The position numbers and the translations under genes are program-made. A DNA stretch of 64,000 nucleotides from a bacterium. GTDB lineage: Bacteria; Bacillota; Sulfobacillia; UBA995. The number at the start of each line of letters is the position of its first letter. Position 1 is the first letter of the stretch. Of this stretch, positions 27,860 to 49,362 are shown piece by piece. The stretch covers positions 1-64,000 of the forward strand of contig JAVHLP010000004.1 in NCBI GenBank assembly GCA_031082145.1, given 5' to 3'. The notes under the pieces were generated by a model that was given only the letters and a program-made list of their open reading frames with translations, was not told the DNA's origin and ran no database searches.

Positions 27860-27861
27860 GG

Positions 27862-29419: not shown

Positions 29420-29429
29420 GCTCCCAGAG

Positions 29430-29458: not shown

Positions 29459-29466
29459 GGGGCGCC

Positions 29467-29621
29467 CTAGGCAGTTGTGGATATGGCCACGAACACGAAG
29501 TCAGCCAGAATAGCCTTGTCCAGCAAGGTCGGCCCAGTCTTGCCGGCCGCGCCGAACACCGAGATCTTCACCTCGCTCACGCTGTCCGCGTCGAAGTTGT
29601 GGATCGACACGTCGACTGTGG
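29467..29621 (-). pseudogene. 3' fragment of an unknown gene, 5' end lost
   Basis: On the minus strand, a clean coding stretch of about 50 codons ends at TAG 29,467-29,469, just before a terminator hairpin. It reads TVDVSIHNFDADSVSEVKIS, then VFGAAGKTGPTLLDKAILAD and FVFVAISTTA, with normal codon use. Going upstream, the coding signal stops at about 29,621, where the + strand methyltransferase fragment starts. No start codon or ribosome site exists for it. The family is not recognised; beta-strand-rich extracellular or coat protein is a guess. Confidence 0.6.
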
Positions 29622-30179
29622 TTGGCTCAAGCGGGCGCCCAGGTCGTCCTGGTGGACTTCGCCTCCGCGCCGCTTGCCTTGAGCCGCCAGGCTTTCTTGG
29701 AGCGAGGCGTAGCTGGGGAGTTCGTCCAGGCGGACGTAAGAGCCATGCCCTTACCGGCCGGCCGATTCGACCTGACGTGGAACGCCGGGGTCTTGGAGCA
29801 CGCTGACCCGGACGCTCAGGCTGCCATGCTGCGGGAGATGGCCCGCGTCACCCGCCCCGGCGGGCAAGTGGTGACAGTAAACCCTCACGCCCGTTGTGTT
29901 CCCTATCAACTGGGCAAGCACTGGGCCTTGCGGACCGGGCGCTGGCCCTACGGTGACGAGAGGCCGTTGTTCTCGCACCGGCAGCTGTTCGCGGCAGCCG
30001 ACCTGGCTCTTGAAGATGAGTTCTCGATTGGGGCCGACGTCGGTTTCGATTTTCTCCGTTTCATCCCAGCCTTGGGCCCGCCCCTGCGGGAGATTGCCCG
30101 GGCTTGGTGGTCCGAACTGAGCTGCGCAGACCGCCGCCAGATGCCGGGCTACCTGCTGGTGGGCATCGCCAGGACATGA
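29622..30179 (+). pseudogene. class I methyltransferase lacking its N-terminus
   Basis: A SAM-dependent methyltransferase remnant of 185 codons. It begins inside the Rossmann fold: AQAGAQVVLVDFASAPL is the strand-2 acidic region, and the preceding glycine-rich motif I (GxGxG) and about 50 residues are missing. The rest is well preserved (LPAGRFDLTWNAGVLEHADP, MARVTRPGGQVVTVNPH). The TTG at 29622 has no ribosome site. Without motif I it cannot bind SAM normally. Its stop overlaps the start of the next glycosyltransferase (ATGA). It meets a truncated minus-strand gene at 29,621. Confidence 0.7.
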
Positions 30180-31117: not shown

Positions 31118-31285
31118 CCGCGACCGTGGCCGATCAGGTACGCCAACTTGCGAAGGCCTGCGGAGACGCTCCTGAAGGGCTGCCGGGTCGTGCTCCGCAT
31201 ACGGCCAACAGATTTCCCCGAACCGCCTAAGTACGTTTGGGTCCATGTGACCCCCACGTGGGAAGGGTTCCCTCACATCGGTTCA

Positions 31286-31361
31286 AACCACCGGTTGGCG
31301 GCTGAGCGGCGGTGTGGCATGGAACGGTCCGGGTCATCGCTCCCTGAGCCGCTAGTTAGGG
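31286..31361 (-). repeat. attC-like site 1 (degenerate)
   Basis: Right outer box GTTAGGG (31355-31361). The inner boxes GGTTGGCGGCTGAGCGG and GAGCCGC are present, but the left outer box is eroded (AACCACC instead of GCCTAAC) and the inner arm has a short insertion. It lies 11 bases after the stop of the MazG-like gene. Confidence 0.55.
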
Positions 31362-31372
31362 GACCCCATCAG

Positions 31373-31687
31373 TCAACCAGGCAGTAGACTTTGGGGCTTG
31401 AGGCCATCATACGACCGGCTGATGGACTCCTCAAGCTCTGGCCTGATCTCATAGTACTGCGCAACCTGCAAGGCGCACCTGATGACATCCTGCACTTCCT
31501 TGGCAAGGTGAGCCCGGTCAGGCTGCCCCAACTTCTGTCTCTTGATCCCGGTGGTCTCGAAATGGTTGACCTGTTCGGCCAGCTCCCCACACTCCTCAAG
31601 CAGTCGGGTCATGATCTGGAAGGGGTGATTGCCGCCGGGGTACCGCCGGGTGATGCCCTCACTGACTGTCCACAGGCGGTCGAGCAT
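31373..31687 (-). CDS. MazG-like nucleotide pyrophosphohydrolase (cassette gene)
   Basis: A 104-residue all-alpha protein. RLLEECGELAEQ (residues 28-39) and HLAKEVQDVIRCALQVAQYY (about 60-79) form the EExxE and ExxD metal-binding motifs of the MazG/MazG-like NTP pyrophosphohydrolases. These hydrolyse non-canonical or excess NTPs, and in phage or mobile contexts can lower ppGpp or sanitise nucleotide pools. ATG 31687 follows GGAGA. It ends 11 bases before attC site 1, the usual cassette layout. Confidence 0.8.
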   Translation of the reverse strand: MLDRLWTVSEGITRRYPGGNHPFQIMTRLLEECGELAEQVNHFETTGIKRQKLGQPDRAHLAKEVQDVIRCALQVAQYYEIRPELEESISRSYDGLKPQSLLPG

Positions 31688-31722
31688 GTCTCGGCTCTCC
31701 TTCCACGACGCCAGATCGTCAC

Positions 31723-31808
31723 GCCTGACGGTTGGCTAAGCTACGGCGGTGGTGTGTTGCACGGAACCGCCTGAGCCCACATCCGTCCGCTTGAGCCGGT
31801 GATCAGGC
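31723..31808 (-). repeat. attC-like site 2
   Basis: Outer boxes GCCTGAC (31723-31729) and ATCAGGC (31802-31808). Inner boxes GGCTAAGC and GCTTGAGCC are complementary except for one extra G in the right arm, matching the extrahelical base of real attC sites. Length 86 bases. Confidence 0.75.
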
Positions 31809-31899
31809 GCTATGAGCTCGCCTCTGTTGACGGGTTCATCCTGAATGCTGCAGCCGATTCGCCCAAGCGTGGACCGACCGCACATAGCCTTCGGGAATG

Positions 31900-32048
31900 T
31901 TAAGCGCCATCAACCCGGATCGCGGAATCCAGGCAAGCTGCTGGTGCTAATGGCTTATGGCTACGTCGCGCCTGATCATTCCGAAGAAGGACTACTTGGT
32001 CCTCAGTATGATGACACCCTTCACCGAGACCGGGAAGCGGTGGGTCAT
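31900..32048 (-). pseudogene. NUDIX hydrolase remnant (cassette gene)
   Basis: On the minus strand, ATG 32048 follows TGGAGGGC and reads MTHRFPVSVKGVIILRTK, the typical first strand of a NUDIX hydrolase, then hits TAG. In the neighbouring frame the sequence continues as VVLLRNDQARRSHK, the expected next strand. The NUDIX box itself (GX5EX7REUXEEXGU) is absent, so the gene is frameshifted and 3'-truncated inside its cassette. The cassette lies between attC sites 2 and 3. The full region 31,809-32,173 holds no other supported gene. Confidence 0.6.
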
Positions 32049-32173
32049 GATGTCTGCCCTCCATAGGATGCAGGTTCGGTTCCGGCCGGTACGAGCACTG
32101 CCGCCGCACCTGGCTGAATCGGAATTCGGCACGGGCACGGCAGCCCCTGCCAGTAGCACCTCAAGAGGGAATC

Positions 32174-32259
32174 TGCCAACGATCTGCCGCTAACCGGTAC
32201 CGGCCGAACAGCAACCGGAGCGAGCCCCCGCGGCCGATGTCGGGGGCTGCTGGTTAGGC
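32174..32259 (-). repeat. attC-like site 3
   Basis: Right outer box GTTAGGC (32253-32259) preceded by GCTG, and left box TGCCAAC (32174-32180) followed by CCGCTAACCGG. The right inner arm has diverged and contains its own small hairpin (GCCCCCG/CGGGGGC). It lies 11 bases after the stop of the 340-residue cassette gene. Confidence 0.65.
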
Positions 32260-32269
32260 CTAGTAGCCT

Positions 32270-33292
32270 TCAGGCTTCGGCGCGGCCGACAGCGTCACAC
32301 GCGTCCAGGCATCGCTCAAGCCACTCCACTGTGAGGGGCTGCACGGAGGCGCCCCCGGCGATGGCCTCGACGATTGGGCGAGCATAGATGAACCCGCCGC
32401 CAACTATCTGACCCACCTGCTCCTCTAGCTGGGGCGGCGAATGCCCTGCCAAGACCCATGCGGCTAGCGAGCGTGTCAGGGTCTCGCAGAATACGTTGAC
32501 CCAGGAAGTATCCGTCCGGTCCCAGGCGTAGCTCAGTTGGTTCATTGACTCGTACACGGCGTCGAGGAGGCGCCTGCGCCGTGCGATGGCCGGTCGCCAT
32601 TCCGGCAGCACGGCCTCGAGGTGTAGCTCGATGAGCTCATGCAGGTAGGATTCCGGGCGCAGATGGCTGGTTACGATGCAGGCACTTCTGTCTGTGTGAA
32701 TAACGTCAGTAAGCTCGTCAGCCTGCAGAGGATTGAGCACGGTGAGGACGGACTGCGGCGGGCCAGGGAACAGACGCGCGAGCTTGGCCACCGCATGACG
32801 TACCTTCCGGGAGTAGTCCAGCCCGTTGCTGGATATCTCCTGCTCGACGGACAAGGCGTAGGCGGACAGGGCGTTGCCGTACTCGCTGCAACTCTCAAGG
32901 GAGAGGATATGGTCAGGCAAAGCCAGGGCCCACTTGGCGACATCGCAGCCCCTCTCCGCGGGCGAGACGTTTCTCAGAGTGGCAAGGTAGGCACAGATAG
33001 AAGGTAGATCGGGGTCGAGGTCACCGCATTCGGTCAGCCAGGCCACTGCCGCCAGGATGGACCCTCGCGGCCAGTAGGGATTCACGCGGCCGTCATCAAT
33101 CCGTGCTTCCCTGAAGTAGTCAAGCGCTGTCTTAGGCCAGTTCCCAGTGAGAACGGCCTGGATAAGCAGGCCTGCCCGAATCGGGTTGGCCAGGTGGTAG
33201 CCGGACGCCGTCAGTCCGAGGTAGACGTCGAAGACTCTCCTCGAGTACACGACGGTATCGGCCCTGCAGGCATGCTCTCTCTTCGCCGACAT
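32270..33292 (-). CDS. orphan cassette protein, unknown
   Basis: 340 residues, no recognised domain, no signal peptide and no convincing transmembrane segments. It is mainly alpha-helical by composition, with Leu/Ala-rich segments (PIRAGLLIQAVLTGNWPKTA; KWALALPDHILSLESCSEYG; RRRLLDAVYESMNQLSYAWD). A helical-repeat-like solenoid is possible. ATG 33292 follows GTGGGGG. Bounded by attC sites 3 and 4, so it is the gene of one complete cassette. Cassette arrays commonly carry such orphans. Confidence 0.7.
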   Translation of the reverse strand: MSAKREHACRADTVVYSRRVFDVYLGLTASGYHLANPIRAGLLIQAVLTGNWPKTALDYFREARIDDGRVNPYWPRGSILAAVAWLTECGDLDPDLPSICAYLATLRNVSPAERGCDVAKWALALPDHILSLESCSEYGNALSAYALSVEQEISSNGLDYSRKVRHAVAKLARLFPGPPQSVLTVLNPLQADELTDVIHTDRSACIVTSHLRPESYLHELIELHLEAVLPEWRPAIARRRRLLDAVYESMNQLSYAWDRTDTSWVNVFCETLTRSLAAWVLAGHSPPQLEEQVGQIVGGGFIYARPIVEAIAGGASVQPLTVEWLERCLDACDAVGRAEA

Positions 33293-33329
33293 GCATCCCC
33301 CACATCCAAGACCAGGTTTCAGGCAATCG

Positions 33330-33416
33330 GGCTAACGGTTGGCAGCTAAGCGGCGCCTGTGTGAGGCCACCGCGAGAACAGCCGAGCCAGGCTGCGTCCG
33401 CTTGCGCTGGTTAGGC
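33330..33416 (-). repeat. attC-like site 4
   Basis: Outer boxes GGCTAAC (33330-33336) and GTTAGGC (33410-33416). Inner arms CAGCTAAGCGG and CCGCTTGCGCTG pair with one or two unpaired bases. Length 87 bases. It follows the YciI-like gene by 24 bases. Confidence 0.75.
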
Positions 33417-33440
33417 GCGCAACCTTCATGCCCTCTGGGC

Positions 33441-33737
33441 TTAGAGCTCCACACGGTCAAAACCCGGGGCCTTGCCCCAGAGGAGTAACCGGTAACCTCT
33501 CCTCAGGCCGTGCACGACGAAAGGGTCACGCTCAATGAGTTCCACGGCCTGGGCTTTGGACTCAACCTCCAGCACCCAGAGGCCCCCACAAGGACGTTCG
33601 CCGGGCGCGGAGCGCAAGCCGCCAGCCAGCAGAATGGCGTCGCGGTTGCCGTCAAGGTAGGCGTAGTGATCGGCCGAGTGTCTGTCCCGAATCTCACCCG
33701 CGTCCTCGTTGTCGTCGAATATGGCGACCCATCTCAT
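33441..33737 (-). CDS. YciI-like (YCII domain) protein (cassette gene)
   Basis: A 98-residue alpha/beta-barrel-type small protein. The start MRWVAIFDDNEDAGEIRDRH, the HYAYLDGN segment and the later VESKAQAVELIERDPFV are typical of the YCII-related family, which are small cytosolic proteins of mostly unknown role, sometimes with a His-Asp pair (here RHSADH). ATG 33737 follows AGGGGGG. It may share a cassette with the phosphotransferase gene 162 bases upstream, unless the weak site at 33,828-33,905 is a true attC. Confidence 0.8.
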   Translation of the reverse strand: MRWVAIFDDNEDAGEIRDRHSADHYAYLDGNRDAILLAGGLRSAPGERPCGGLWVLEVESKAQAVELIERDPFVVHGLRRGYRLLLWGKAPGFDRVEL

Positions 33738-33827
33738 GGATCTGCCCCCCTGGTGATGCGCGGCTGGGTCAGGTTCTTGCCTCCGGACAGCCGACCCTGC
33801 TTCCTACAGGTCCTGCGCCTTGCTGGC

Positions 33828-33905
33828 CTGTGACGGTGTGGGTGGTCAGGAGTTCATGGCACTCACGAATGATGGCCCCCTCCGAAGGGTAGCCCGGCGT
33901 TACCC
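33828..33905 (-). repeat. possible highly degenerate attC
   Basis: On the minus strand, GGGTAAC overlaps the TAA stop of the phosphotransferase gene and is followed by CGGGCTACC. At the other end, TGACCACCCACACC is followed by GTCACAG. This is only loosely like the other sites, but the position directly at a stop codon is where a site is expected. Confidence 0.25.
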
Positions 33906-34841
33906 AGTAGCCAATGGTCTGGCGGCCCCGAGTAAGGAGTGAGCGAGTTCAACTGCCTTCACAAGGTCCCTCTCCAGGTCACCGTTCACGACGCGGTCCC
34001 TGCTACTCTCAGCCCACTTGGGGAACTGAGTCATTAGAGAGGCTGTCTGGAGGGTGTACAGGGTTGCCAGAGGACGAACCAGCGTCTCCTCGCGTGAGTC
34101 TAGGGTACCGTAGGCTTCCCAGAAAGCAGGTATTGCGGCGCCTGAGAGGGAGGCGGTCACGTTACGGCAATCACTGTACCGCAACCCCACCCCGAGGAGG
34201 TGGTAATCGAAGACCAGAGCCTCCTGCGCGTGGTCCTCTCCCCCGGCTAGAGCCAGATTGGTCCAGTAGAAGTCATTATAGTTGAGGGTAGGTGTCAATG
34301 CCTTGACCGCAGCCTGGAGAAGCTCAATGTGTTCGGCAGCGAGGTCCCAGGGGCGGCTTTGAGCGATGCCGGCTGATCGACCCGTGGCAAGTATGGTGTC
34401 GGGACTAAGGTTGTCCTCCTCCCGGGCCAGGAAGCTCACACGCTGCCCCGTGGCAAGTAGCGCTTCGCCAGCATCGTGGAAGATCCGGTACCAGCGTGCG
34501 ACCGCTCGGGCGACGTCTGGTCTAGTCAGATCGTCCGGAGTAGCGAGCCTCCAGGTCCCACTGTTCGCGAGGTCCTCAAGTAATAACGCCTGTTCCGTGC
34601 TGCCGTGAATCGGTACCGTTGGCACCCCGAGTTCTCGAAGCAACAGGGAGCCGGCAACCTCCACCCGCGCCGCTTCCTCCGGCAGCCACTTGAGGACGTA
34701 GGACTTGTCGTCCGTGACGACCCGCCAGACATTGTGGCCGTGCCTTACGGAGAGGCTCTCTACCTGCCGGATCGTCGCTGCATCGACACCGAGCTGTCTG
34801 AGGAGATCATGCGGATCAGTACTCACGGAATCACTCTCCAT
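33900..34841 (-). CDS. aminoglycoside phosphotransferase-like kinase (cassette gene)
   Basis: A 313-residue protein of the APH/choline kinase fold. YVLKWLPEEAARVEVAGSLL carries the ATP-binding lysine region. The catalytic loop normally reads HGDxxxxN; here it is NYNDFYWTNLAL (near residue 190), keeping the aspartate and asparagine with His-Gly replaced. VFDYHLLGVG is the DxD-like metal site in reduced form. A true resistance kinase is uncertain; many such cassette proteins have unknown substrates. ATG 34841 is the first start within conserved sequence, but it lacks a clear ribosome site and the frame is open upstream through an attC site. Confidence 0.7.
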   Translation of the reverse strand: MESDSVSTDPHDLLRQLGVDAATIRQVESLSVRHGHNVWRVVTDDKSYVLKWLPEEAARVEVAGSLLLRELGVPTVPIHGSTEQALLLEDLANSGTWRLATPDDLTRPDVARAVARWYRIFHDAGEALLATGQRVSFLAREEDNLSPDTILATGRSAGIAQSRPWDLAAEHIELLQAAVKALTPTLNYNDFYWTNLALAGGEDHAQEALVFDYHLLGVGLRYSDCRNVTASLSGAAIPAFWEAYGTLDSREETLVRPLATLYTLQTASLMTQFPKWAESSRDRVVNGDLERDLVKAVELAHSLLGAARPLATG

Positions 34842-34867
34842 CTGGGCGGCTTCTATCAGCGTCTCCC

Positions 34868-34947
34868 GTGTAACGGTGGCGGCTGAGCAGCGGCGGTGCC
34901 GGATTGCGTTGGAAGGGCCACCCGTCCGCTCGAGCCACTGGTCGACA
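34868..34947 (-). repeat. attC-like site 5
   Basis: Left box GTGTAAC (34868-34874), right box GTCGACA (34941-34947). Inner arms GGCTGAGC and GCTCGAGCC pair with one extra G, the expected extrahelical base. Outer boxes are eroded. Length 80 bases. Confidence 0.6.
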
Positions 34948-35066
34948 ATCCGCCCTGATATGGGGCTTCTCACATTCACATCAATGCCCGGGTTGGGAGG
35001 CGCAATGTCTACGCCCTCGCAAAACGCCTTCTTGCCGTTGCGGACTCGCCATCCGAAACGGGTCAC
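34941..35066 (-). CDS. mini-ORF resembling an M23 peptidase segment (cassette gene)
   Basis: GTG 35066 follows GGTGGGGAG and reads 42 codons up to the attC boundary: MTRFGWRVRNGKKAFCEGVD, then IAPPNPGIDVNVRSPISGRI. This resembles the first part of an M23/lysostaphin-type domain (usual pattern FGWR...FHxGxDIxAPxGTPVxA), but the first zinc histidine is a cysteine and the rest of the domain is missing. There is no stop before attC site 5; the frame runs on through the site into the phosphotransferase frame. It may be a real micro-gene or a relic. Confidence 0.4.
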
Positions 35067-35134
35067 CTCCCCACCTTCAACAAACCAGGGTCGGATCAAA
35101 CATGTTCTCGCACCCCCACGCTACCCAGGAGTCA

Positions 35135-35227
35135 GCCCAACGGTTTGGCGCTAACCTGCACCGGCCGTGCCGCAGCCTGAGCCGGCCCCCAAAGCCGGTG
35201 TCCGGGTTGAGCGGCTGGATAGTCGGC
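35135..35227 (-). repeat. attC-like site 6
   Basis: Left outer box GCCCAAC (35135-35141) followed by GGTTTGGCGCTAACCTGC. Right inner arm GGGTTGAGCG, with CGCTAACC/GGTTAGCG pairing plus one extra G. The right outer box is degenerate (AGTCGGC near 35,227). It lies 10 bases after the vapC stop. Length about 93 bases. Confidence 0.7.
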
Positions 35228-35237
35228 CCACGTGGAT

Positions 35238-35666
35238 TCAGCCTGTCGGCTTCACGGCCAGTACAGCGGAGAGGAGTTCCTCAGGCGAAAGGATTGGCAG
35301 TGAGGCTCTCTCAAAGTCCCTCGCGTTCCGCGTCACAATCCCGGCCACTCCGGCCGCACGGGCCGCTTCATGAAGGACAGCGTCTTCACAGTCTGAGAAA
35401 CGGGTGCCGATAGCGTCGACAAGGACACTGTGAGTCACTGGGGCCACTTCGAAGATCCTGAGGATCTCTCCGACGTGTTTCTGGGCTTCCCGGTGGCCCA
35501 CCGCCTTACTGGCGAGGTAGTGGATTGTTGTCACGGTAGTCGCGCAAAGAACGCCGTGCAGGCGTCCCTGATCTGCGAGGCTAAGGAGTTGGGCTGCAAC
35601 TGGGGCATAGGGGTGCCTTGCTAGGAGCACATCCAGAACTACGTTCGTGTCAAATAGGATCTTCAT
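35238..35666 (-). CDS. PIN-domain toxin, VapC-like (cassette gene)
   Basis: A 142-residue PIN ribonuclease. The acidic residues expected for the metal site are in ILFDTNVVLD (residues 3-12), DCEDAVLHEAAR near 96-107 and VTRNARDF near 115-122. VapC toxins cleave specific tRNAs or rRNA and are neutralised by the cognate antitoxin. The start ATG overlaps the antitoxin stop by four bases, a typical two-gene operon. Toxin-antitoxin cassettes are thought to stabilise large integron arrays. Confidence 0.88.
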   Translation of the reverse strand: MKILFDTNVVLDVLLARHPYAPVAAQLLSLADQGRLHGVLCATTVTTIHYLASKAVGHREAQKHVGEILRIFEVAPVTHSVLVDAIGTRFSDCEDAVLHEAARAAGVAGIVTRNARDFERASLPILSPEELLSAVLAVKPTG

Positions 35667-35902
35667 CGGTGCTTTGCCTCAAGGTGCCGCCGGTAGTCGT
35701 CCTCTGACATCTCTGCTCCGGCAAGAGCTCCATATAGAGAACGCACTCTCGGTGTGATCTCCCTCTGGTCAGGGTCGACTTCATCGATGAGTACGAAGTA
35801 GTCGGCAACCATCTGGGAAACCGACTTCCCTGATTTCTCGGAGATTCGCTTTATTTTCTGGATCAACCCCTCATCCAGACGGAGCGTCAGCTTCCTGTGC
35901 AC
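35663..35902 (-). CDS. ribbon-helix-helix antitoxin, VapB-like (cassette gene)
   Basis: 79 residues. The N-terminus KLTLRLDEGLIQKIKRISEK is a ribbon-helix-helix DNA-binding motif (strand plus two helices), followed by KSGKSVSQMVADYF. The C-terminal part (EMSEDDYRRHLEAKHR) is acidic/basic and likely wraps the PIN toxin. It is the first gene of the vapBC-like operon and probably represses it. ATG 35902 follows CCTGTGCACAG-rich sequence with no strong ribosome site visible. Confidence 0.8.
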   Translation of the reverse strand: MHRKLTLRLDEGLIQKIKRISEKSGKSVSQMVADYFVLIDEVDPDQREITPRVRSLYGALAGAEMSEDDYRRHLEAKHR

Positions 35903-35984
35903 AGTTGGTCCCCCTGACGTATCACTGACGGCCTAAGCATACGTCACACGGTTCGGAAAGTCAAACTGCCTGGTCCCGGTGTCC

Positions 35985-36072
35985 GGATAACAGATGGCGG
36001 TTAACCTGCACCGGCCGCTGCCACGGGATCGGGCGCTCGCAGGCCGGCGTCAGGTTGAACCGGTAGTTAGGC
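35985..36072 (-). repeat. attC-like site 7
   Basis: Right outer box GTTAGGC (36066-36072), left box GGATAAC (35985-35991). Inner arms GGTTAACCTG and CAGGTTGAACC pair completely with one extra G. The core sequence CCTGCACCGGCC is shared with site 6. Length 88 bases. Confidence 0.8.
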
Positions 36073-36093
36073 CGAACCAGCGCCCCGAGCGCC

Positions 36094-36122
36094 TTGACGT
36101 CTAGACGCTATGATGTTACAGT
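36094..36122 (+). promoter_or_regulatory. promoter of the + strand toxin-antitoxin cassette
   Basis: TTGACG (36094-36099), a 17-base spacer and TACAGT (36117-36122). The antitoxin ATG is at 36129, six bases after the -10 box, so the transcript would be leaderless or nearly so. No Shine-Dalgarno sequence is visible in front of that ATG, which fits. Confidence 0.5.
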
Positions 36123-36128
36123 AGTGAC

Positions 36129-36362
36129 ATGAGCCGAGTGAACAAGCGAGCCACGGTCTATTTCGATCCTGACCTCCACAGAGCTCTTAGGATCAAGGCG
36201 GCCGAGACCGACCAGAGCGTCTCTGCTCTGGTCAACGCGGCCGTCCGCAAGGCTTTGGCCGAAGACGCTATTGACCTAGCAGCCTTTGAGGACCGCGTCA
36301 ACGAATCAACCGTGCCGTACGAGGCGGTACTGCGTAATCTGAGAGGCCGTGGCAAGCTATAG
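36129..36362 (+). CDS. ribbon-helix-helix antitoxin (cassette gene)
   Basis: 77 residues. RATVYFDPDLHRALRIKAAE (residues 7-26) is a ribbon-helix-helix DNA-binding domain, followed by the second helix (SVSALVNAAVRKALAED). The C-terminal segment probably binds the toxin. It overlaps the toxin gene by 14 bases. The operon runs opposite to the other cassette genes but carries its own promoter, as often seen for toxin-antitoxin cassettes. A leaderless start is suggested by the promoter position. Confidence 0.85.
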   Translation: MSRVNKRATVYFDPDLHRALRIKAAETDQSVSALVNAAVRKALAEDAIDLAAFEDRVNESTVPYEAVLRNLRGRGKL

Positions 36363-36606
36363 GCTTGAATTCACGCTATCAGCTGTCAAGGAACTTGAGG
36401 ACCTTCCCCGCAAGGACCTAGCCCGCGTCATGGGCCGCATCGAGGGACTATCCGCCAACCCTCGACCTCTTGGCTGCGAGAAGCTTTCTGACCAAGAGCG
36501 GTATCGGGTCCGCCAAGGCAACTACCGCATCCTGTATGGAGTTAACGACCCCCAGCAGCTAGTCACAATCGTCAAGATCGGACATCGCCGCGAAGTATAC
36601 CGCTAG
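36349..36606 (+). CDS. RelE/ParE-family toxin (cassette gene)
   Basis: An 85-residue toxin of the RelE/ParE superfamily. YRLEFTLSAVKELEDLPRKD at the N-terminus and the C-terminal YRVRQGNYRILYGVNDPQQL with KIGHRREVYR are the family core. RelE members cut ribosome-bound mRNA; ParE members poison gyrase. The basic and histidine residues in GHRREVYR favour a RelE-like RNase. GTG 36349 lies inside the antitoxin gene, giving translational coupling. The gene ends 14 bases before attC site 8. Confidence 0.88.
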   Translation: MASYRLEFTLSAVKELEDLPRKDLARVMGRIEGLSANPRPLGCEKLSDQERYRVRQGNYRILYGVNDPQQLVTIVKIGHRREVYR

Positions 36607-36620
36607 CCCCACGCCTTCCA

Positions 36621-36709
36621 GCCTAACGGTTGGCGGCTAACCGGCCGGTACGAGGCCCACTGTGAGTACCCCGAGCCACCGTGGCGTCCGGTTGAGCCGC
36701 TGGTTAGGC
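36621..36709 (-). repeat. attC-like site 8 (best preserved)
   Basis: Outer boxes GCCTAAC (36621-36627) and GTTAGGC (36703-36709) are perfect complements. Inner arms GCGGCTAACCGG and CCGGTTGAGCCGC pair over 12 bp with a single extra G. Length 89 bases. This is the reference site for the array. Confidence 0.9.
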
Positions 36710-36819
36710 CAGCACTGCTGGTAGTCGAGTGGACCTTGGCCGTTCTACCCACGAACCTCGTGTGCAGAGGCGCGGTTCATGCGGCTTGGAGCCAGTCGCT
36801 AGACGGTACAACCCAATGC

Positions 36820-37062
36820 TCACGGACTACCCCCCAGTATGCCTATGAGGCACATGCCGAGAATCAGGAGGCCAAGGCTGAGGAGGACGAGCACCGCAAA
36901 GCCAGGCACTCGCTGGAGTGTCTTGTGGTGTTCGTAATCCGACTGGAACACAGAACGCCGGTCGAACTCGGGAGGGACACGATGACGGGCGGAGGTCGCT
37001 ATGACGCGCAGCCCGAGGAGGACACCCAACCCACCCAGCATCCATCCGATGATTTCCCGCAT
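36820..37062 (-). CDS. small two-helix membrane protein (cassette gene)
   Basis: 80 residues. ATG 37062 follows GGAGGTGTAGC, an excellent ribosome site. Two transmembrane helices: residues about 4-22 (IIGWMLGGLGVLLGLRVI) and about 55-76 (GFAVLVLLSLGLLILGMCLI), joined by a soluble loop with many charged residues. No family is recognised. Small membrane proteins of unknown role are common cassette cargo. The 110 bases between its stop and attC site 8 look non-coding. Confidence 0.65.
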   Translation of the reverse strand: MREIIGWMLGGLGVLLGLRVIATSARHRVPPEFDRRSVFQSDYEHHKTLQRVPGFAVLVLLSLGLLILGMCLIGILGGSP

Positions 37063-37083
37063 GCTACACCTCCAAGATGGACG

Positions 37084-37171
37084 GCCTAACGGAATGCGGT
37101 TAACCTGCGCCGGCCCCAACGAGCCGGACGGGCCCCGAAGGGCCGGTGTCAGGTTGAACCGCTGGTTCGGC
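37084..37171 (-). repeat. attC-like site 9
   Basis: Left outer box GCCTAAC (37084-37090), right box GTTCGGC (37165-37171, one change). Inner arms GCGGTTAACCTG and CAGGTTGAACCGC pair perfectly with one extra G. Length 88 bases. It begins two bases after the GNAT stop codon, as expected for a cassette. Confidence 0.85.
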
Positions 37172-37173
37172 CG

Positions 37174-37710
37174 CTACAGAACTCTGGCGTAGACATGGCA
37201 GTCTCGTGGCTCCGAGGAGATGTTCGGGAAGACGTTCCATCGCCTCAGAATACCCTCACAGGTCATTCCGGCTTTCTCCATAACCCGAGCCGAAGCCGGG
37301 TTCTCAACGTTGCATACAGCCCAGACTCTGCTCAGTCCAGAGAAAGACAGCAAGGAGTCGACCACCTGTGAGAGCGCCTCCGTCATGTACCCCTTTCCCC
37401 AGTACGGCCGGGCCAGGACATAGCCCACCTCCGCTCTGTGGCCGCGGGGGCGAGCAGCTACCATGCCGATGGGCTCACTTAACCCAGACAATTGAATGAC
37501 CCACGTGAACTCCTCGGCTGAAGCCCAGGCGTCCAGGCACTTCTTGAGGAAGGCACGAGTCTCCGCGATGTCGGTATGTGGTCGCCATAGTAGGTATCGC
37601 GTTACCTCTGCATCCTGGGCATACCGCGAGAAGATCACGTGAGCATCTTCCATCGCGGGAGGCCGGAGGTTCAGTCGCTCGGTTTCGAAGATCTTGCAGA
37701 CGTCCCTCAT
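37174..37710 (-). CDS. RimJ/RimL-type GNAT acetyltransferase (cassette gene)
   Basis: 178 residues, GNAT fold. ETERLNLRPPAMEDAHVIFS is the usual opening of the RimJ/RimL branch; the acetyl-CoA pyrophosphate loop is LARPYWGKGYMTEAL near residue 100; VCNVENPASARVMEKAGM near 135-152 completes the family core. RimJ/L enzymes acetylate protein N-termini, and relatives act on small molecules or antibiotics. ATG 37710 follows GGAGGA. It is the first cassette at the right end of the array. Confidence 0.85.
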   Translation of the reverse strand: MRDVCKIFETERLNLRPPAMEDAHVIFSRYAQDAEVTRYLLWRPHTDIAETRAFLKKCLDAWASAEEFTWVIQLSGLSEPIGMVAARPRGHRAEVGYVLARPYWGKGYMTEALSQVVDSLLSFSGLSRVWAVCNVENPASARVMEKAGMTCEGILRRWNVFPNISSEPRDCHVYARVL

Positions 37711-38143
37711 CTCCAGTCCTCCAATTCCACGTGACAGTCCCCACATCGTCGGCCGAACTACGATTACCTTGATCCTCATAACACACCGAACCTTAATCCT
37801 TCTGTCCTGCATATCAAGTGGTGGCGCAACGGGCTATTGCTCTCTTAGCAGCGGTACTGTGCCCGTCTGAGGGAGCATCGGGAGTCTTATCAGGATCAGC
37901 ATAAGGATCTTCCCGCTTCATAAGTCATCCACGGGGCCAGGAACCCCGGCGGACCGACGCTTGACCATCGTCTCGATGGCTCGGATACCACCGCCGTGTC
38001 CATTTGCCCCCAACCCGGTCGAATCCTGCCAGTTCCGGGTCGCCGTCATCCGCGGCCCCGGGGGAACGGGCGACAACGTGAGCTGCGTGAATTGAAGACT
38101 CTCACGCGACTTCGGAAGAGTGGCACTTGAGCGCCCGCACGTC
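37711..38143. other. gene-free gap between cassette array and infC promoter
   Basis: No supported gene. A GCGCAAC box at 37,824-37,830 followed by GGG loosely resembles the left outer box of the array's sites and may mark the right border. The rest, including 37,831-38,143, shows no recombinase gene, no attI-like site that I can identify and no RNA gene. Confidence 0.5.
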
Positions 38144-42205: not shown

Positions 42206-43026
42206 GAACGGTCGCCGGCCGCCACAACCGGCACCTTGCCTACCTGCGGCGGCTGGGCCGCCGGCGGGTGCGCCAGGCCGAAGGCGTTGTCCTGGTGGAG
42301 GGGCCGCGCCTCGCCGGCGAGGTGGCCCGGGCGGGCCTGGTCCCCCGCCTGGCCGTGGTCTGCCCTGACCTCTTGCCTCCCGGCGGCTTGCCGCCGGCCC
42401 TGGAGACCTGGCTGGAAGAGGCCGGCGTCACCCTGGAAGTCCCGCCCGGCCTGTTCGGCGAGTTGGCCCACACCGAGTCGCCCCAGGGTCTGCTGGCGGT
42501 GGTCGACGAGCCCTCCCGCGACCCTTCGTCCGCCCTGGAAACGCCCCGCGCACCGGTCCTGGTTCTCGACCGGGTGCGCGACCCGGGAAACGTCGGCGCC
42601 CTCGTCCGTAGCGCTCACGCTCTAGGGGCGGCGGCCGTGCTCACCGTCCCCGCTACCGGTGACCCGCTAGGTCCCAAGGCCCTCCGGGCCGCCGCCGGGG
42701 CCACCTTCCGGATCCCCGTGGCCAGGCCGCTGCCCGCGCCGGACCTGGCCGGGCTCCTGGTCGGTGGGGGCTTCCGCCTGGTGGGGGCGGATCCTCGCGG
42801 TGCCCTGTTGCCATGGGAGGCGGACCTGGCTGGAAAGGTCGCCCTGGTGATCGGCAACGAGACGGCGGGACTGGATCCCGCCTTCGGTGGGGCGGCTCTC
42901 ATCGGCATTCCCATGCCCGGCGGGGCCGAGTCGTTGAACGCCGCCGCCGCCGGCGCCGTTCTCCTGTACGAGGCCCTCCGGCAGCGGGCGGGGTCGGGTC
43001 TTGCGCCCACGCCCGAACGGGCATAG
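42202..43026 (+). CDS. TrmH/SpoU-family RNA 2'-O-methyltransferase
   Basis: 274 residues. An N-terminal substrate-binding domain (about 1-100; HTESPQGLLAVVDEP) precedes the SPOUT knot with motif 1 (LVLDRVRDPGNVGALVRSAHA near residue 115), motif 2 (LVIGNETAGLDPAF) and motif 3 (IPMPGGAESLNAAAAGAVLL). It methylates a ribose in rRNA or tRNA; in Bacillus the gene at this place (ysgA) lies just before pheS. GTG 42202 overlaps the upstream stop. Confidence 0.92.
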   Translation: MRTVAGRHNRHLAYLRRLGRRRVRQAEGVVLVEGPRLAGEVARAGLVPRLAVVCPDLLPPGGLPPALETWLEEAGVTLEVPPGLFGELAHTESPQGLLAVVDEPSRDPSSALETPRAPVLVLDRVRDPGNVGALVRSAHALGAAAVLTVPATGDPLGPKALRAAAGATFRIPVARPLPAPDLAGLLVGGGFRLVGADPRGALLPWEADLAGKVALVIGNETAGLDPAFGGAALIGIPMPGGAESLNAAAAGAVLLYEALRQRAGSGLAPTPERA

Positions 43027-43057
43027 CAGCGGTTGGTGAGCCCATCCAGGCCGCGGA

Positions 43058-45922
43058 TCAGGCCCTCGCAATGCCGTACTTGTCACCGAGGTACCGCTCT
43101 ACCGCTACCCGCTCTGCCTCCTGGAGGTGACGATCGTAGACGATCACCTCGGCCAGGTCACCGGTGAACTTGCGGGCGCCGGTCCAGCCGGCCCCGATCG
43201 TCAGGCCGTCTAACCCCGGTGTGTGGACAGCGGCCACCACCCGGGACCGGCCGTTCTCGTACAGCCGGGTCTCGGGACCGATGACACAGGTGTTGACGAC
43301 GAGCTCGGTCACCGGCGGGCGGTTATAGGCGGCTCCCCGGGGACCGGTCAGTCGCACACCCGCGGGAGGGGTGGATTTCCACTCCAGGCCGCAGTCCACC
43401 CTGAGCCCATCGAAGATCTTGCCGTACCGGTGCTCGGATCCTTCGGCGAGCCGCCATACGGCGAAAACCATCCACATCCTTCTGCCGGGGACAAGCTGCC
43501 CTCTCAGGTAGTCCGACCGGAAGCGGAGAACCGGGCGCCCGTTTGGGCCGCTCCGAGACAGCACGGGTTGCAGGCGGGGATCCGGCTGCTCGGCGTGGTG
43601 GCCGTTGCCGCTCAGGTCAGGCCACACGGGAACTCGCTCGCCGTCCTGCCAGGCCATCGCGTAACCGGCGTCGTACCATGCTGTTGACGGAGGAAGCCCG
43701 TCTCCGTCGGGGTGCACTCCGTTGGCGGCGGCGAGGAAGCTCTTGGCGTGCTGGCGGGGTGTGTACCGGCGGCGCACGAGCTCGAGCCCGGCACTGGCCA
43801 GCGCTTGGCGCCGGCCGTGATCGGCCAGCAACGCCATGACGGCGTCAGCCGCTAGCCGAGGCTGGCCCGGCGGGTAAAGGCGCCCGTTGTGCCCGTCCCC
43901 GATCAACTCCACGTTGCCGCCAACGGCCGAGCTGACCACGGCGCACCCGCAGGCCATCCCCTCCAGCAGGCTTCGCTGCAGGCCCTCGTTCGTGGACGTG
44001 GATAGGACCAGGCCTCCCGACCTGCGTGCGGTGTCGTACACGGCCGGCATCCGGGCATTGGGAACATAGGGGATGAGGTGCAGGTGTTGCTCCAGCCCCA
44101 TCTGCCGGACGGCCGTCTCGAATGCTTGCCCTGTCCCTTCCGGTGAGGCGTCAAGGTTCACCAGCACCCAGAAGGTTACCCGGATGCCGCCGAGAACGAG
44201 GATCCGGGCTACCTCCAGCAGTTCAAGCCAGTTCTTGGCCGTACCCAGGCGGCCAACCCACAGCACCACGGGCGTGTCCGGTCTGACCGGTGGCAGCCCC
44301 TTGACCGGGGACTGAGCGTGGCGGACGGGGGTGAAGAGGCGAGTGTCCACCGCGTGAGGGACGACCCTGACCGGGCAGAACCCCTGGCCCTTGCTCATAG
44401 CCTTCTTGACGAGTCCGGCCACGTAGGCTGAGGGGACGATCACAGCCTGGAGCTGGGAGAGGGGCAACTCGGAGCAGGCTCGAAGGGCTGGTCCAGACCG
44501 CCCCCGGACTTCATACAGGAGGTTTCCCCGGTACCCCGATGACAGCAGGTCGCCGAGGGTCTTGGGGCTGTTGATCACCGAGACGACCGCGTACGGCCTC
44601 GATTGCACCAGGGAGACGACGTCCTCGGCCTTCCTGGCCACCCAGGTTGTGAAACCGCTGAAGGTGTGCTGGCCGGCCGGAGGGGGATTCAGCAGGAGTT
44701 TCTCGCATTCCACTCCCAGCTCGCGGAAAGCCTGCATGCGGGTCAAGGTCGAGATGGCCACTCCGCCCCGTATGGAATCGCTGATAAACAGCATGCGCCG
44801 CCTTGGGGTCAGTCCCAGGACTTCAAGATACCGCCTGGCCGCGTAGGGGATGGTGAACTGGCGTAGCCAGCTTGCCTGGACCTCCCTCCCGTTTCCGTCT
44901 AGGACGTCGATGATGGCATCGGCCAGCGCCAGACGATCGCCCACGGGAACCAGGTGGCCGTACTTGCCGTGGCCCAGTATCTCGGCCGAGCCACCGGGGC
45001 AAGCGGTGGCCACCACCGGGGTGCCGCAAGCCATGGCCTCGACGAGGACGTTGGGACATCCTTCCCATAGCGACGGTAGAACCAGAACCTCGGCCCGGGC
45101 CATGTAGGCATACGGATTGTCAACAAAGCCCCGCAGGGAGACTTCGCCGCCCAGGCCGAGTTCGAGTGCCAGTAAAGCCAGCTTGGCCCGCTCCTTCCCT
45201 TCGCCCAGGATGACCAGCCGGGCCCGGCGTTCTCGCCTGACCCGAACCATGGCGTGGATCAAGTCGGCGAAGTTCTTCGGCGCTCGGAGTGAGCCCACAC
45301 CGAGCACCACGGGCGGTTTACCGACACCGAACCAGGGGTGGGCGGGGGGATCCTCGAGCCGGCAGGCGAGGTCGGGGGGAATGGTCGGGTTGTAGATGAC
45401 CTCTATCCTCTCCCGGGGGAGAGAGGCGGTCTCCACCAGAAGATCGGCTACCGCATGGGACGTCGCCACAACAGCATCGGCCTCCCCGTACTGCCGGCGG
45501 ATCTTCTCCAACCGTCGCGTCTGTGCCACCGTGGCCTCGCGCACGACCAGCCGGGTGTCCGCCCCGGCCAGGCGCCGGGCCGCTATCGCGCTCGAGCTGG
45601 TGGCAACCAGACCGGAGAGCAGCGCGACCGGCTGCTCCTGCCTGATGTACTCCGCCAGCGCCGTCACGGCTGTCGCGTGGCCGTCGGCCCGCAAGTCTAT
45701 CAGCCTAACGTCCGGCGCAACGTGCTTGAGGTATGGACCCTCGGCGCGGTGCAGCACCAGGTCGGTGCGAAAGCCATTCTCGGCGAAGCCGCGGGCCAGA
45801 TGCACCATCATCCGTTCGGCCCCACCTCCCTTGAGGGCGGGGGCCAGCAGGGCCACCGGCCGCGCGGGGCGCCCGCCCTTCCTTCCGCCGCGGGGCAAAC
45901 GAGTTGCTGAGGAGGGCCTCAA
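43058..45922 (-). CDS. GT4-GT4-LamG tri-domain fusion protein
   Basis: 954 residues. First GT4 domain about 20-375 (LLAPALKGGGAERMMVHLAR; donor block LWEGCPNVLVEAMACGTPVV). Second GT4 domain about 378-745 (MLFISDSIRGGVAISTLTRM; NEGLQRSLLEGMACGCAVVS), closely like the GT at 19.2-20.4 kb. The last 200 residues form a LamG/concanavalin-like jelly roll, with PDLSGNGHHAEQPDPR and the family ending DLAEVIVYDRHLQEAERVAV. LamG modules are normally extracellular; here no signal peptide exists, so the protein is probably cytosolic or at the spore surface. TTG 45922 overlaps the upstream stop. Role in coat or exosporium glycan assembly is inferred. Confidence 0.85.
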   Translation of the reverse strand: MRPSSATRLPRGGRKGGRPARPVALLAPALKGGGAERMMVHLARGFAENGFRTDLVLHRAEGPYLKHVAPDVRLIDLRADGHATAVTALAEYIRQEQPVALLSGLVATSSSAIAARRLAGADTRLVVREATVAQTRRLEKIRRQYGEADAVVATSHAVADLLVETASLPRERIEVIYNPTIPPDLACRLEDPPAHPWFGVGKPPVVLGVGSLRAPKNFADLIHAMVRVRRERRARLVILGEGKERAKLALLALELGLGGEVSLRGFVDNPYAYMARAEVLVLPSLWEGCPNVLVEAMACGTPVVATACPGGSAEILGHGKYGHLVPVGDRLALADAIIDVLDGNGREVQASWLRQFTIPYAARRYLEVLGLTPRRRMLFISDSIRGGVAISTLTRMQAFRELGVECEKLLLNPPPAGQHTFSGFTTWVARKAEDVVSLVQSRPYAVVSVINSPKTLGDLLSSGYRGNLLYEVRGRSGPALRACSELPLSQLQAVIVPSAYVAGLVKKAMSKGQGFCPVRVVPHAVDTRLFTPVRHAQSPVKGLPPVRPDTPVVLWVGRLGTAKNWLELLEVARILVLGGIRVTFWVLVNLDASPEGTGQAFETAVRQMGLEQHLHLIPYVPNARMPAVYDTARRSGGLVLSTSTNEGLQRSLLEGMACGCAVVSSAVGGNVELIGDGHNGRLYPPGQPRLAADAVMALLADHGRRQALASAGLELVRRRYTPRQHAKSFLAAANGVHPDGDGLPPSTAWYDAGYAMAWQDGERVPVWPDLSGNGHHAEQPDPRLQPVLSRSGPNGRPVLRFRSDYLRGQLVPGRRMWMVFAVWRLAEGSEHRYGKIFDGLRVDCGLEWKSTPPAGVRLTGPRGAAYNRPPVTELVVNTCVIGPETRLYENGRSRVVAAVHTPGLDGLTIGAGWTGARKFTGDLAEVIVYDRHLQEAERVAVERYLGDKYGIARA

Positions 45923-46833
45923 GCAGACTCACCGCGCCGGACGGCGTCGACGATGAGATCAAAAAGGTCGGTGACCAGGTATCGGGTGGGTTGCCAGGCT
46001 CCTTGCCCGTGGGTGAAGAAGCGAGCCCCTCGGACCCGGTGATAGGGCCAACCGACCGAGGTCTCCAGTAGCTTTATCTCCTCCCCGTCGAGAACGAAAT
46101 CCATGGCACACAGCGAAAAGGCGTGGGCCTCGACGATCTCAAGCGCCCTATCCAGCAACCGCTCGGTCAGGCCGCCGGGTATGGGGTAAGCCGGCTCGTC
46201 TCTGCCACTTCCCGACGCGAACGGAACCTCTTCCCGATTGAACCGCTTCAGTATGCAGGCATATCTCCTGGCTATGATGATGACGCGCCAGTCGTGGGCG
46301 TTGCCGGGGCAGAAACGCTGCCAGAAGAGATAGCCGCGCTGCCGCTGATCCCAGTGCAGGGGGATGCCCGGGCCAAAAGCCAGGGAGATCTCGCATTCCG
46401 CTTCGGCCGGTGTCCGCACCAGGCGGACGTTCCTCGAAGACGCTCCGGTGGCGGCCTTGGACACGAACGGGTACTGCATGGCCGTGACGGCGGTCTTCGA
46501 CTGCCGTCTGGTAACCAGGTGCAGGCTGGGAGGCATGTACCGGTGAAGCAGTGCGTACTGTCGCACCTTGTCGTCGTACAGTTCCCCTTCCAGGCCGGTG
46601 GGGATCAGGAGCACCTGCTTCCTGGCTAGCCGGCGCATCAGCCGCTTGTCTCGCTCCCGCAAGCCTGGGCGGTGGTTCATGTGCACGAAGACCGGGACTG
46701 GTCTGTCGGGTACGGCATCGGCGTCGTCGAATAGGTGGACCGGCAGACCCGCCCGCTCACCCGCTTGGGCCACTTTCGTTCCCCAACCCGAGGCGTCCCG
46801 GTAGGCGTAAAGCAACGACCGGTCTACCTGCAA
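45919..46833 (-). CDS. ATP-grasp protein (tandem paralogue 1)
   Basis: 304 residues. Landmarks are VPVFVHMNHRPGLRERDKRL, the ATP-binding lysine in PFVSKAATGASSRNVRLVRT and the metal-binding DFVLDGEEIKLLETSVGWP. It resembles ATP-grasp ligases of the YheC/YheD or RimK type; YheCD are spore-coat associated. TTG 46833 follows GGGAGG by about eight bases and aligns with the start of the paralogue; the longer open frame upstream is not coding. It is followed by the GT fusion gene through a stop/start overlap. Confidence 0.75.
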   Translation of the reverse strand: MQVDRSLLYAYRDASGWGTKVAQAGERAGLPVHLFDDADAVPDRPVPVFVHMNHRPGLRERDKRLMRRLARKQVLLIPTGLEGELYDDKVRQYALLHRYMPPSLHLVTRRQSKTAVTAMQYPFVSKAATGASSRNVRLVRTPAEAECEISLAFGPGIPLHWDQRQRGYLFWQRFCPGNAHDWRVIIIARRYACILKRFNREEVPFASGSGRDEPAYPIPGGLTERLLDRALEIVEAHAFSLCAMDFVLDGEEIKLLETSVGWPYHRVRGARFFTHGQGAWQPTRYLVTDLFDLIVDAVRRGESA

Positions 46834-46869
46834 CGGCCCCGACCTCCCGGCCCAGGGCGCCCGGCGGAG

Positions 46870-46885
46870 CTTGAGAGCTCTCAAG
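46870..46885. repeat. 16-bp perfect palindrome between ATP-grasp genes
   Basis: CTTGAGAG and CTCTCAAG without a loop, seven bases downstream of the stop codon of the upstream ATP-grasp gene and about 37 bases before the start of the next. It could be an operator for a dimeric regulator or part of a GC-poor transcript end. Confidence 0.5.
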
Positions 46886-46892
46886 AGAGCCC

Positions 46893-47798
46893 TCAAGTGA
46901 ACTCGCCGGCCCCGATGGCATGCACCAGTAGCTCGAACAGGTGGGCTTCCCGGTAAGGGGTGGGGCGCCAGGCGCCTCCTTGCCAAACGAAGAAACGAGC
47001 GCTGGCGAACTTCTGGAAGGGCCAGCCAACGGATGTCTCCAGCAGCCTCAGGGCGCCCCGGTCAAGCACGAAATCCATGGCGCACAGCAGGAACCCGTAG
47101 GCCAAGACGACCTGTAAGGCTTGGTTGAGCAAGTTCACCACAAATGGGCTGTCGATCGCCTCGACCGGTTCGAACCGGGTGCCCCCGGATGCAAAAGGAA
47201 CTGCTTCCCGGTTCAATCGCCTGACTACAAAAGCGTATCTCCCGGCGATGATCGTTACTCTCCAGTCGTGCGCGTTGTCCGGGCAGAAGCGCTGCCAGAA
47301 GAGGTAGCCGCGCTGGCGCTGAGCCCAGTGCAGGGGGATACCCGGCCCGAAGGCCAGGGCGATCTCACGTTCCGCTTCGGCCGGTGTCCTCACCAGGCGG
47401 ACGTTGCTGGAAGCGGCACCTGTGGCCGCCTTGGAGACGAAAGGGTACGGCATGGTCGGCAGGACGGCTCGCGCTTGCTCCCGGGTTACAAGGTGCCAGC
47501 TAGGGGGCATATACCGGTGGAGCAAGCGGTACTGCCGCACCTTGTCGTCGTAGAGCTCCGCCTCCAGGGCGGTTGGGATGAGGAGCACTCTTCTCTCGGC
47601 CAACCGTGCCATCAGTTGCTTGTCGCCTGCTCGCAAGTCTGGGTGATGGTTCATATGCACGAAGACGGGCACCGGGCGGTCGGGCACGGCGTCTGCCTGG
47701 CTGAACAGGTGAACGGCCAGACCCCGCTGCCTGCCCGCTCTGGCCAGCCTCACGCCCCACCCGCGACTGTCCCGGTACGCGTAGACCACCTGCACCAT
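46893..47798 (-). CDS. ATP-grasp protein (tandem paralogue 2)
   Basis: 301 residues, about 60 percent alike by eye to its neighbour over long stretches (VPDRPVPVFVHMNHHPDLR; YPFVSKAATGAASSNVRLVR; FLLCAMDFVLDRGALRLLET). The pair arose by tandem duplication. ATG 47798 is preferred; a GTG lies one codon earlier. The ribosome site is weak. It opens the minus-strand operon of the third glycosylation island, convergent with nothing and divergent from the epimerase gene. Confidence 0.75.
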   Translation of the reverse strand: MVQVVYAYRDSRGWGVRLARAGRQRGLAVHLFSQADAVPDRPVPVFVHMNHHPDLRAGDKQLMARLAERRVLLIPTALEAELYDDKVRQYRLLHRYMPPSWHLVTREQARAVLPTMPYPFVSKAATGAASSNVRLVRTPAEAEREIALAFGPGIPLHWAQRQRGYLFWQRFCPDNAHDWRVTIIAGRYAFVVRRLNREAVPFASGGTRFEPVEAIDSPFVVNLLNQALQVVLAYGFLLCAMDFVLDRGALRLLETSVGWPFQKFASARFFVWQGGAWRPTPYREAHLFELLVHAIGAGEFT

Positions 47799-47981
47799 CA
47801 CCTTGAAGGTTCAGTTCGCCCGCAGCGCTAGCATCTTACGACTCCCTCTCCTGCCCGGTGCCGGTACGCCCCGCGGGGGGCGATGGTCCCGCCGACATCG
47901 ACGCTTCGCCCCGGGTCCAGCCCGGCAGCCGGTTCATACCGTGTTCCGCAAACCAACCGGCCGACCTGAAGAGGTGACCTC

Positions 47982-48872
47982 ATGAAGCTACTGGTTACGG
48001 GAGGCTCGGGATTCATCGGCTCCCACGTCGCACAGACCCTGCGTTCCCGAGGGCACGAAGTCCTCACTTTCGACTTCCGTCCACCCGCCCCGGGCCTTGG
48101 CATCCAGGGCGTTGAGGGCGACGTCTGTGACCTGGCGACGCTGACCCCGGCCATGCCGGGAGTGGACGTGGTCTGTCACCTGGCGGGGGTCGCCGACGTA
48201 TATGTGGCCCTCGATGACCCGCAACTGGCGGCAAAGGTGAACGTTCTCGGTACGGCCAACGTCATGCAAGCCGCCAGGGAAGCAGGCATAAGCAGGGTTG
48301 TGTATGCGTCCACCTGGGAGGTCTACGGCGCTCCCCGCTATCAGCCTGTTGACGAAGGCCACCCGTGCGTGCCTGACCACCCCTACAGCATTACCAAGTA
48401 CGCCGGGGAGCGGATGGCCCTCTGTTGTGGCGCCCTGGACGGCATCTCCACCATCGCCCTGCGGTTGGGAACCGCTTACGGCTCCCGCCTCAGGGCAAGC
48501 TCCGTGTTCTCCGTGTTCATCCAGAGAGCCCTGCATGGGCAATCCATACCGGTTCATGGCGATGGGAAACAGGCACGCCAGTTCACGCACGCCTACGACC
48601 TAGCCCGGGCGTTCGTTGCCGCCGCCGAGTCCGACGTGCAGACGGCGACCTTCAACGTGGGCGCCCCGGAGATGGTGAGCGTGATTGAGATCGCTCAGAT
48701 GATCACCAAGCACTTGCCGGCTGAAATCGAGTTTATCCCCTCGCGGAAGGCGGACGTGGTGCCCCTGCGCTTCTCATCCGACTTGGCCCGTAAAGTGCTT
48801 GGCTGGACGGCGACGATCCCGTTCGAGGAGGGTCTCCGGCAGATGCTGGCCGACATCGTAGCCCGCTCCTAG
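47982..48872 (+). CDS. NAD-dependent sugar epimerase/dehydratase
   Basis: 296 residues, extended short-chain dehydrogenase. TGGSGFIGSHVAQTL carries the Rossmann glycine motif; the catalytic YxxxK is YSITKYAGER near residue 137; STWEVYG supplies the Ser/Thr of the triad. Close to GalE/WbpP-like UDP-sugar epimerases, substrate unknown. It is the intact counterpart of the pseudogene at 20.6-21.5 kb. ATG 47982 follows GAAGAGGTGA. It probably supplies the sugar nucleotide for the adjacent glycosyltransferase island. Confidence 0.88.
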   Translation: MKLLVTGGSGFIGSHVAQTLRSRGHEVLTFDFRPPAPGLGIQGVEGDVCDLATLTPAMPGVDVVCHLAGVADVYVALDDPQLAAKVNVLGTANVMQAAREAGISRVVYASTWEVYGAPRYQPVDEGHPCVPDHPYSITKYAGERMALCCGALDGISTIALRLGTAYGSRLRASSVFSVFIQRALHGQSIPVHGDGKQARQFTHAYDLARAFVAAAESDVQTATFNVGAPEMVSVIEIAQMITKHLPAEIEFIPSRKADVVPLRFSSDLARKVLGWTATIPFEEGLRQMLADIVARS

Positions 48873-48900
48873 ACGCCGGCTCACCGGCTCAGCCGTCAGC

Positions 48901-49064: not shown

Positions 49065-49084
49065 GGAGACAGACGATCCCCGGC

Positions 49085-49362
49085 AAAGGTGATGAGGGGG
49101 AAGAGTAGCCCCGTAGCCCGTCCGCCAGGGAGGAGGCGTCCCGACTGCGAGCGCCTCCGGCCGGGCGGGGCTCGGTTCACCCCCGAACCGGCGGCTGAAC
49201 GTGAACGCGGTAGGCCGTTCCGGCGACTCCCACCGTTAGCGGGAGAGGGTATCAAGGGCCTCCGGCCCGGCGTACCCGTGGAGGGGGCGGGCCCACGGCC
49301 CGTCAAGTAGGGTGGTACCGCGGAGGTGACCTCCGTCCCTGAAGGGGCGGGGGTTCTTTGTT
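49085..49362 (+). promoter_or_regulatory. T-box riboswitch of pheST
   Basis: Stem I starts with GATGAGGGGGAAGAGTAG near 49,090. The T-box AGGGTGGTACCGCGG is at 49,309-49,323. The likely specifier is TTC at 49,176-49,178, a phenylalanine codon. A terminator follows: ACCTCCGTCCC and GGGGCGGGGGT around TGAA, then TTCTTTG. Uncharged tRNA-Phe would stabilise the antiterminator and allow pheST expression. Here the T-tract is much better than in the thrS leader. Confidence 0.92.

Follow-up and report, generated by a model that had tools for sequence, protein, structure and literature searches.

A reading frame joining two different GT4 glycosyltransferase domains to a LamG-like jelly roll in a bacterium of the Sulfobacillia

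In a window of 64,000 nucleotides (the whole stretch of DNA analyzed here; positions 1 to 64,000 of contig JAVHLP010000004.1 from a bacterium of the Sulfobacillia), two different glycosyltransferase domains of family GT4 and a C-terminal LamG-like jelly roll are encoded in one continuous reading frame. We consider the product to be a cytoplasmic, probably bifunctional surface-glycan glycosyltransferase, the jelly roll of which would bind the acceptor or the nascent glycan, and assign a probability of about 0.5 to this reading. The two GT4 domains adjoin each other with almost no linker, and ~15 linker residues separate the second one from the jelly roll. The gene and its domains are located as follows:

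43058..45922, minus strand: GT4-GT4-LamG fusion protein, 954 aa (ORF, Pfam, GC3)
44807..45862, minus strand: GT4 domain 1, residues ~21-372 (K216, E287-x7-E295)
43697..44800, minus strand: GT4 domain 2, residues ~375-742 (K563, E646-x7-E654)
43061..43678, minus strand: ConA-like/LamG jelly roll, residues ~749-954 (profiles, AlphaFold fold match)

Two different GT4 domains

Pfam detected Glycos_transf_1 with an E-value of 1e-56 for the whole protein, in two stretches. Domain 1 matches PF13439 and PF00534; domain 2 corresponds to the second Glycos_transf_1 stretch, with a poor Pfam match in its N-terminal half. BshA and MshA are among the PDB relatives of the GT4 domains. K216 and E287/E295 of domain 1 were seen in the alignment to BshA (2jjm), while K563 and E646/E654 of domain 2 were seen in comparison with PDB GT4 chains and are kept in a paralogue encoded in the window. 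With an E-x7-E motif and a phosphate-binding lysine in each, both domains belong to the GT4 transferases.

A related genome (G035) encodes a complete stand-alone GT4 of 374 aa that shares 52% identity with domain 1, and the family of domain 1 is widespread, occurring in cyanobacteria, proteobacteria, haloarchaea, and Bacillota. For domain 2, 47-49% identity was found to a stand-alone GT4 located at 19239-20396 of the same window, and 153 other genomes of the class contained no close relative of it. In a phylogenetic tree, the two domains are placed in separate clades. Since they thus have separate positions and separate stand-alone relatives, two different transferases have been joined. Tandem duplication of one GT4 was ruled out by these separate clades and by an identity of ~31% over 248 aligned columns.

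The C-terminal jelly roll

The C-terminal domain contains the LamG motifs WPDLSGNGHHAEQ, GDLAEVIVYDR, and YLGDKYG. Its match to Laminin_G_3 (PF13385) in Pfam is below threshold (E 1.6e-3; 19.1-22 bits vs a gathering cut-off of 27.6) and covers residues 884-937 only (54 residues), which reflects a limit of the Pfam model and not of the domain. The sequence-only reading had named this domain LamG, and although Pfam stays below its cut-off, a suitable profile is strongly positive: a profile of 16 relatives from which the query was left out found the fusion ORF at an E-value of 1.9e-31, and the inclusion threshold was passed neither by any of the 599 other ORFs of the window nor by any of 200 shuffled versions of the domain. 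The query-family profile also recovers Laminin_G_3 (PF13385) modules in GH43 and GH2 enzymes.

Several phage proteins are related to the domain. When isolated as a stretch of 215 residues, it matched PHROG 10356, a virion structural protein, over residues 5-213 (E 3.8e-16), and tblastn gave a full-length match to a virion protein of Rhodococcus phage REQ2 (E 1e-6). Further relatives are a separate ORF of 259 aa (G095) and the N-terminus of a long ORF that is probably tail-fibre-like (G475). Judged from such comparisons, phage virion proteins are the closest detected relatives; this link describes the relatives detected and is not proof of origin.

An AlphaFold model of the domain (pTM 0.76) is poor at domain residues 93-142, a stretch that could be the place of a binding loop. 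Comparison of the model with the PDB gave ConA-like jelly rolls with E-values just above 1e-3 and TM-scores of ~0.5, among them trypanosome sialidase lectin domains, domain 4 of AbnA, PilC, and others. With phage proteins, several of which are named ConA-like, E-values down to 6e-13 and TM-scores up to 0.76 were obtained. A search of PDB sequences with the first LamG alignment gave nothing significant. By profiles and fold model, the domain belongs to the ConA-like lectin/glucanase (LamG-like) superfamily.

The partner of such a domain is not necessarily a sugar, and a role as docking or oligomerisation module for a protein, e.g. another enzyme of the glycan pathway, is conceivable but rather unlikely. 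LamG and ConA-like jelly rolls are often protein binders or structural modules, the nearest LamG profile is that of a phage virion structural protein, and no ligand-binding or recognisable sugar-binding residues could be identified in the domain. On the other hand, the fusion partners of the domain handle sugars, and its fold neighbours include several carbohydrate-binding modules; the ConA-like module of Streptococcus sanguinis PilC, one of these neighbours in fold, binds glycans (PMC9934059).

Operon and insertion site

The fusion gene is apparently the third gene of an operon, after two genes for ATP-grasp ligases, and its TTG start codon overlaps the stop codon of the ATP-grasp ligase 1 gene. 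Together with a divergent gene, the operon forms a block with the following features:

45919..46986, minus strand: ATP-grasp ligase 1 (coordinates of the listed ORF; translation probably starts near 46830)
46893..47801, minus strand: ATP-grasp ligase 2, 302 aa (RimK-type by relatives)
47982..48872, plus strand: NDP-sugar epimerase/dehydratase, 296 aa, divergent (domain profile matches)
42994..48875, no strand assigned: whole block, ~5.9 kb (absent from the TrmH-pheS gap of the related genomes G001 and G002)

The two ligases are 67% identical to each other. Their direct NCBIfam RimK matches are weak (E 0.0025 and 0.011), and their relatives in other Bacillota exceed the Pfam RimK cut-off. These relatives are located next to a Wzx-type flippase and a GT4, or next to an O-antigen ligase. 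The AlphaFold model of the ATP-grasp ligase was unusable (pLDDT 43). Neither ligase matches Pfam ATPgrasp_YheCD, and membership in the YheC/D spore-coat ATP-grasp proteins was therefore rejected; searches for relatives of the ATP-grasp genes in phages and plasmids gave no match. At loci L160 (2148-3191) and L162 (360-1352), ATP-grasp relatives adjoin ORFs that look, by eye, like N5-(carboxyethyl)ornithine synthase or alanine dehydrogenase, which hints that the amino acid being ligated is an unusual one.

The block is located between TrmH and pheS, and the same site is empty in two related genera. In their genomes G001 and G002, both members of the family, TrmH runs directly into the pheS leader, and the positions corresponding to the block flanks 42993 and 48876 are three bases apart in G001 and ~95 in G002 according to DNA alignments. 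Since the flanks adjoin in both, the ~5.9-kb block was either gained in this lineage or lost from both others. A transposon-type insertion was considered and rejected, as flanking direct repeats were not found. Downstream of the block, a T-box leader of pheS was detected at 49083-49343 of the window on the plus strand (E 5e-14, under the Rfam gathering score).

Proposed function and site of action

As far as hydropathy can indicate, neither a signal peptide nor a membrane helix is evident in the fusion protein; the peak hydropathy over 19 residues is 1.67 and is located inside GT domain 2. Since the operon partners also look cytoplasmic, a cytoplasmic site of action is expected for the protein. 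The architecture of two GT4 domains and LamG without a signal peptide, proposed in the sequence-only reading, is hence borne out by Pfam, LamG profiles, fold prediction, and hydropathy.

As a surface-glycan transferase, the protein would use its two different GT4 modules to add two sugars in succession to one acceptor, probably lipid-linked or coat-protein-linked. By analogy to the GalNAc-transferases, the enzyme would be kept on its acceptor or nascent glycan through binding by the jelly roll; a precedent for a lectin domain that steers a transferase is GalNAc-T1 (PMC10901373). The two ligases, probably of RimK type, might attach an amino-acid-like group to the glycan or to a sugar precursor, and a sugar nucleotide may come from the divergent epimerase. 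We put forward with considerable reserve the more specific proposal of a two-step transferase which carries its own lectin from a phage virion gene and tethers itself to the spore or cell-surface glycan under construction.

The earlier reading also proposed, for a spore-former, that the enzyme is tethered on the forespore to the glycan it makes. The genome also contains an intact SpoIVA gene, which supports the spore-former and counts for a spore role, but for the tethering neither a ligand nor a sporulation promoter of the fusion operon was found, and no spore coat gene lies in or beside this operon. In Bacillus subtilis, the sps glycan enzymes provide a precedent, being active under sigma K in the mother cell, with the sugar then moved to the forespore (PMC7439481); since the mother cell is where glycans of the spore surface are produced, a spore role requires no signal peptide. 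Relatives of GT domain 2 adjoin spore coat genes on Priestia plasmids, but the identity to these proteins is ~25% only. The enzyme may thus have a role at the spore surface that is exerted from the mother cell. That it is a mother-cell enzyme adding sugars to the coat or crust of the forespore, and that LamG fastens it to the glycan of the spore, appears doubtful. The relatives of the ligases are found in ordinary surface-polysaccharide clusters, which makes a surface glycan of vegetative cells no less likely than a spore role.

Search for the same domain order

No other protein with the order GT-LamG was found in the screened sets when the search for this domain order proposed in the earlier reading was performed. 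A screen for the lectin-like domain in ~570 other genomes gave no second GT-LamG protein. With the LamG sequence as query, matches were obtained in 2 of 154 genomes of the class and 3 of 398 genomes of the phylum (own genome included in both), and with a more sensitive LamG profile in 20 of the 398 phylum genomes and in 4 of the 36 genomes hosting relatives of domain 1. Some weaker profile matches of the phylum came with no locus. At the 29 LamG loci of the phylum that were read, no frame had a BLAST match to either GT domain, with the frames being viewed around the LamG match, so that a distant GT could be missed. Nine LamG-matching frames from the phylum and domain-1-host sets were scanned with Pfam and contained no GT; they encode secreted glycoside hydrolases (GH43, GH2), proteins with fibronectin, Ig, or VWA domains, or LamG proteins in which no further domain was named, or remained unmatched. 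The full-length protein, scanned against 84,980 species genomes, yielded 74 loci, all of them GT relatives and none with LamG, whereby the use of exact 8-residue words could let distant fusions escape. In the literature, we found no paper describing a GT4-GT4-LamG architecture.

The fusion is thus known from one assembly, and because the searches returned this architecture a single time, conservation lends no support to its function. It is improbable, in our estimate, that the fusion is a recent event without special function, in which a domain, perhaps derived from a phage or prophage virion, joined a GT gene and was tolerated. Such an event would agree with the occurrence in one genome, with phage-type proteins as the closest relatives of LamG, and with the sole other class genome having a match, where the domain is a separate ORF of 259 aa on a small contig (L015). 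However, the frame is intact, GC3 is host-like, and the LamG motifs are kept, so that the module is not visibly decaying.

Integrity of the reading frame

The fusion ORF comprises 954 codons with a TTG start and zero internal stops, and the GC3 values of its three domains in order are 0.80, 0.83, and 0.80. A frameshift had been named as a possible cause of the fusion, and the frame has no internal break. That an indel from assembly or base calling has fused separate neighbouring genes is very improbable: the GT1-GT2 junction coincides almost exactly with the ends and starts of stand-alone relatives, an out-of-frame TGA is present there, and the epimerase at 20539-22039 of the window has a broken frame, but an indel error would need in-frame joining at both junctions, housekeeping neighbours such as thrS and pheT align to their relatives at nearly full length, and the even GC3 over all three domains counts against such an artefact.

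Comparison with known systems

In bacteria, surface glycans are normally built by separate transferases with a single function each, and the best-studied setting of lectin-guided transfer is found in animals. The animal polypeptide GalNAc-transferases (GT27 plus ricin-type lectin) likewise carry a C-terminal lectin domain, which positions them on the glycosylated substrate. They differ in consisting of one catalytic domain of GT-A type and a beta-trefoil and in acting in the secretory pathway, whereas the fusion protein combines two GT4 domains (GT-B) with a ConA-like jelly roll and is bacterial and apparently cytoplasmic. If the proposed function is true, the protein would be a bacterial counterpart of these lectin-guided enzymes, built from unrelated parts. 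As a natural fusion, it would then be a simple test system for the question whether a tethering lectin gives processive or site-selective glycan synthesis.

A GT4-GT4 tandem of 738 aa is also present in Deinococcus actinosclerus (AWT37695.1), encoded on a plasmid in an exopolysaccharide-type cluster. Its first domain is 48% identical to domain 1, but LamG is absent and its second GT4 is placed on a different branch from domain 2. This tandem therefore arose independently, and a shared origin of the entire GT4-GT4 pair was ruled out.

The phage virion proteins (PHROG 10356; Rhodococcus phage REQ2 gp13) share the jelly-roll family over the full length of the domain, but are parts of virions with no glycosyltransferase attached. 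The fusion shows a jelly roll of the type of phage and secreted enzymes attached to a cytoplasmic enzyme. The sps cluster of B. subtilis and the Priestia plasmid clusters likewise combine glycosyltransferases with sugar-nucleotide enzymes in spore-formers; they differ in that a LamG fusion was not seen there and in that coat genes are absent from the operon of the fusion.

Other observations in the window

Besides the fusion operon, the window contains an NDP-sugar epimerase gene (20539-22039, plus strand) which is broken by an in-frame stop codon and at least two frame changes and is divergent from a GT4 pair at 18040-20396. Together, they resemble another copy of the epimerase/GT arrangement, one that has decayed. 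Between thrS and infC, ~14 kb (24336-37812) are occupied by GT, methyltransferase, and toxin-antitoxin-like genes; in G001, the gap between thrS and infC is ~4.3 kb. A protein of 198 aa (28823-29419, minus strand) gave no match in Pfam or PHROG and has an N-terminal NLVENPGFEDGLASW motif that resembles carbohydrate-binding modules.
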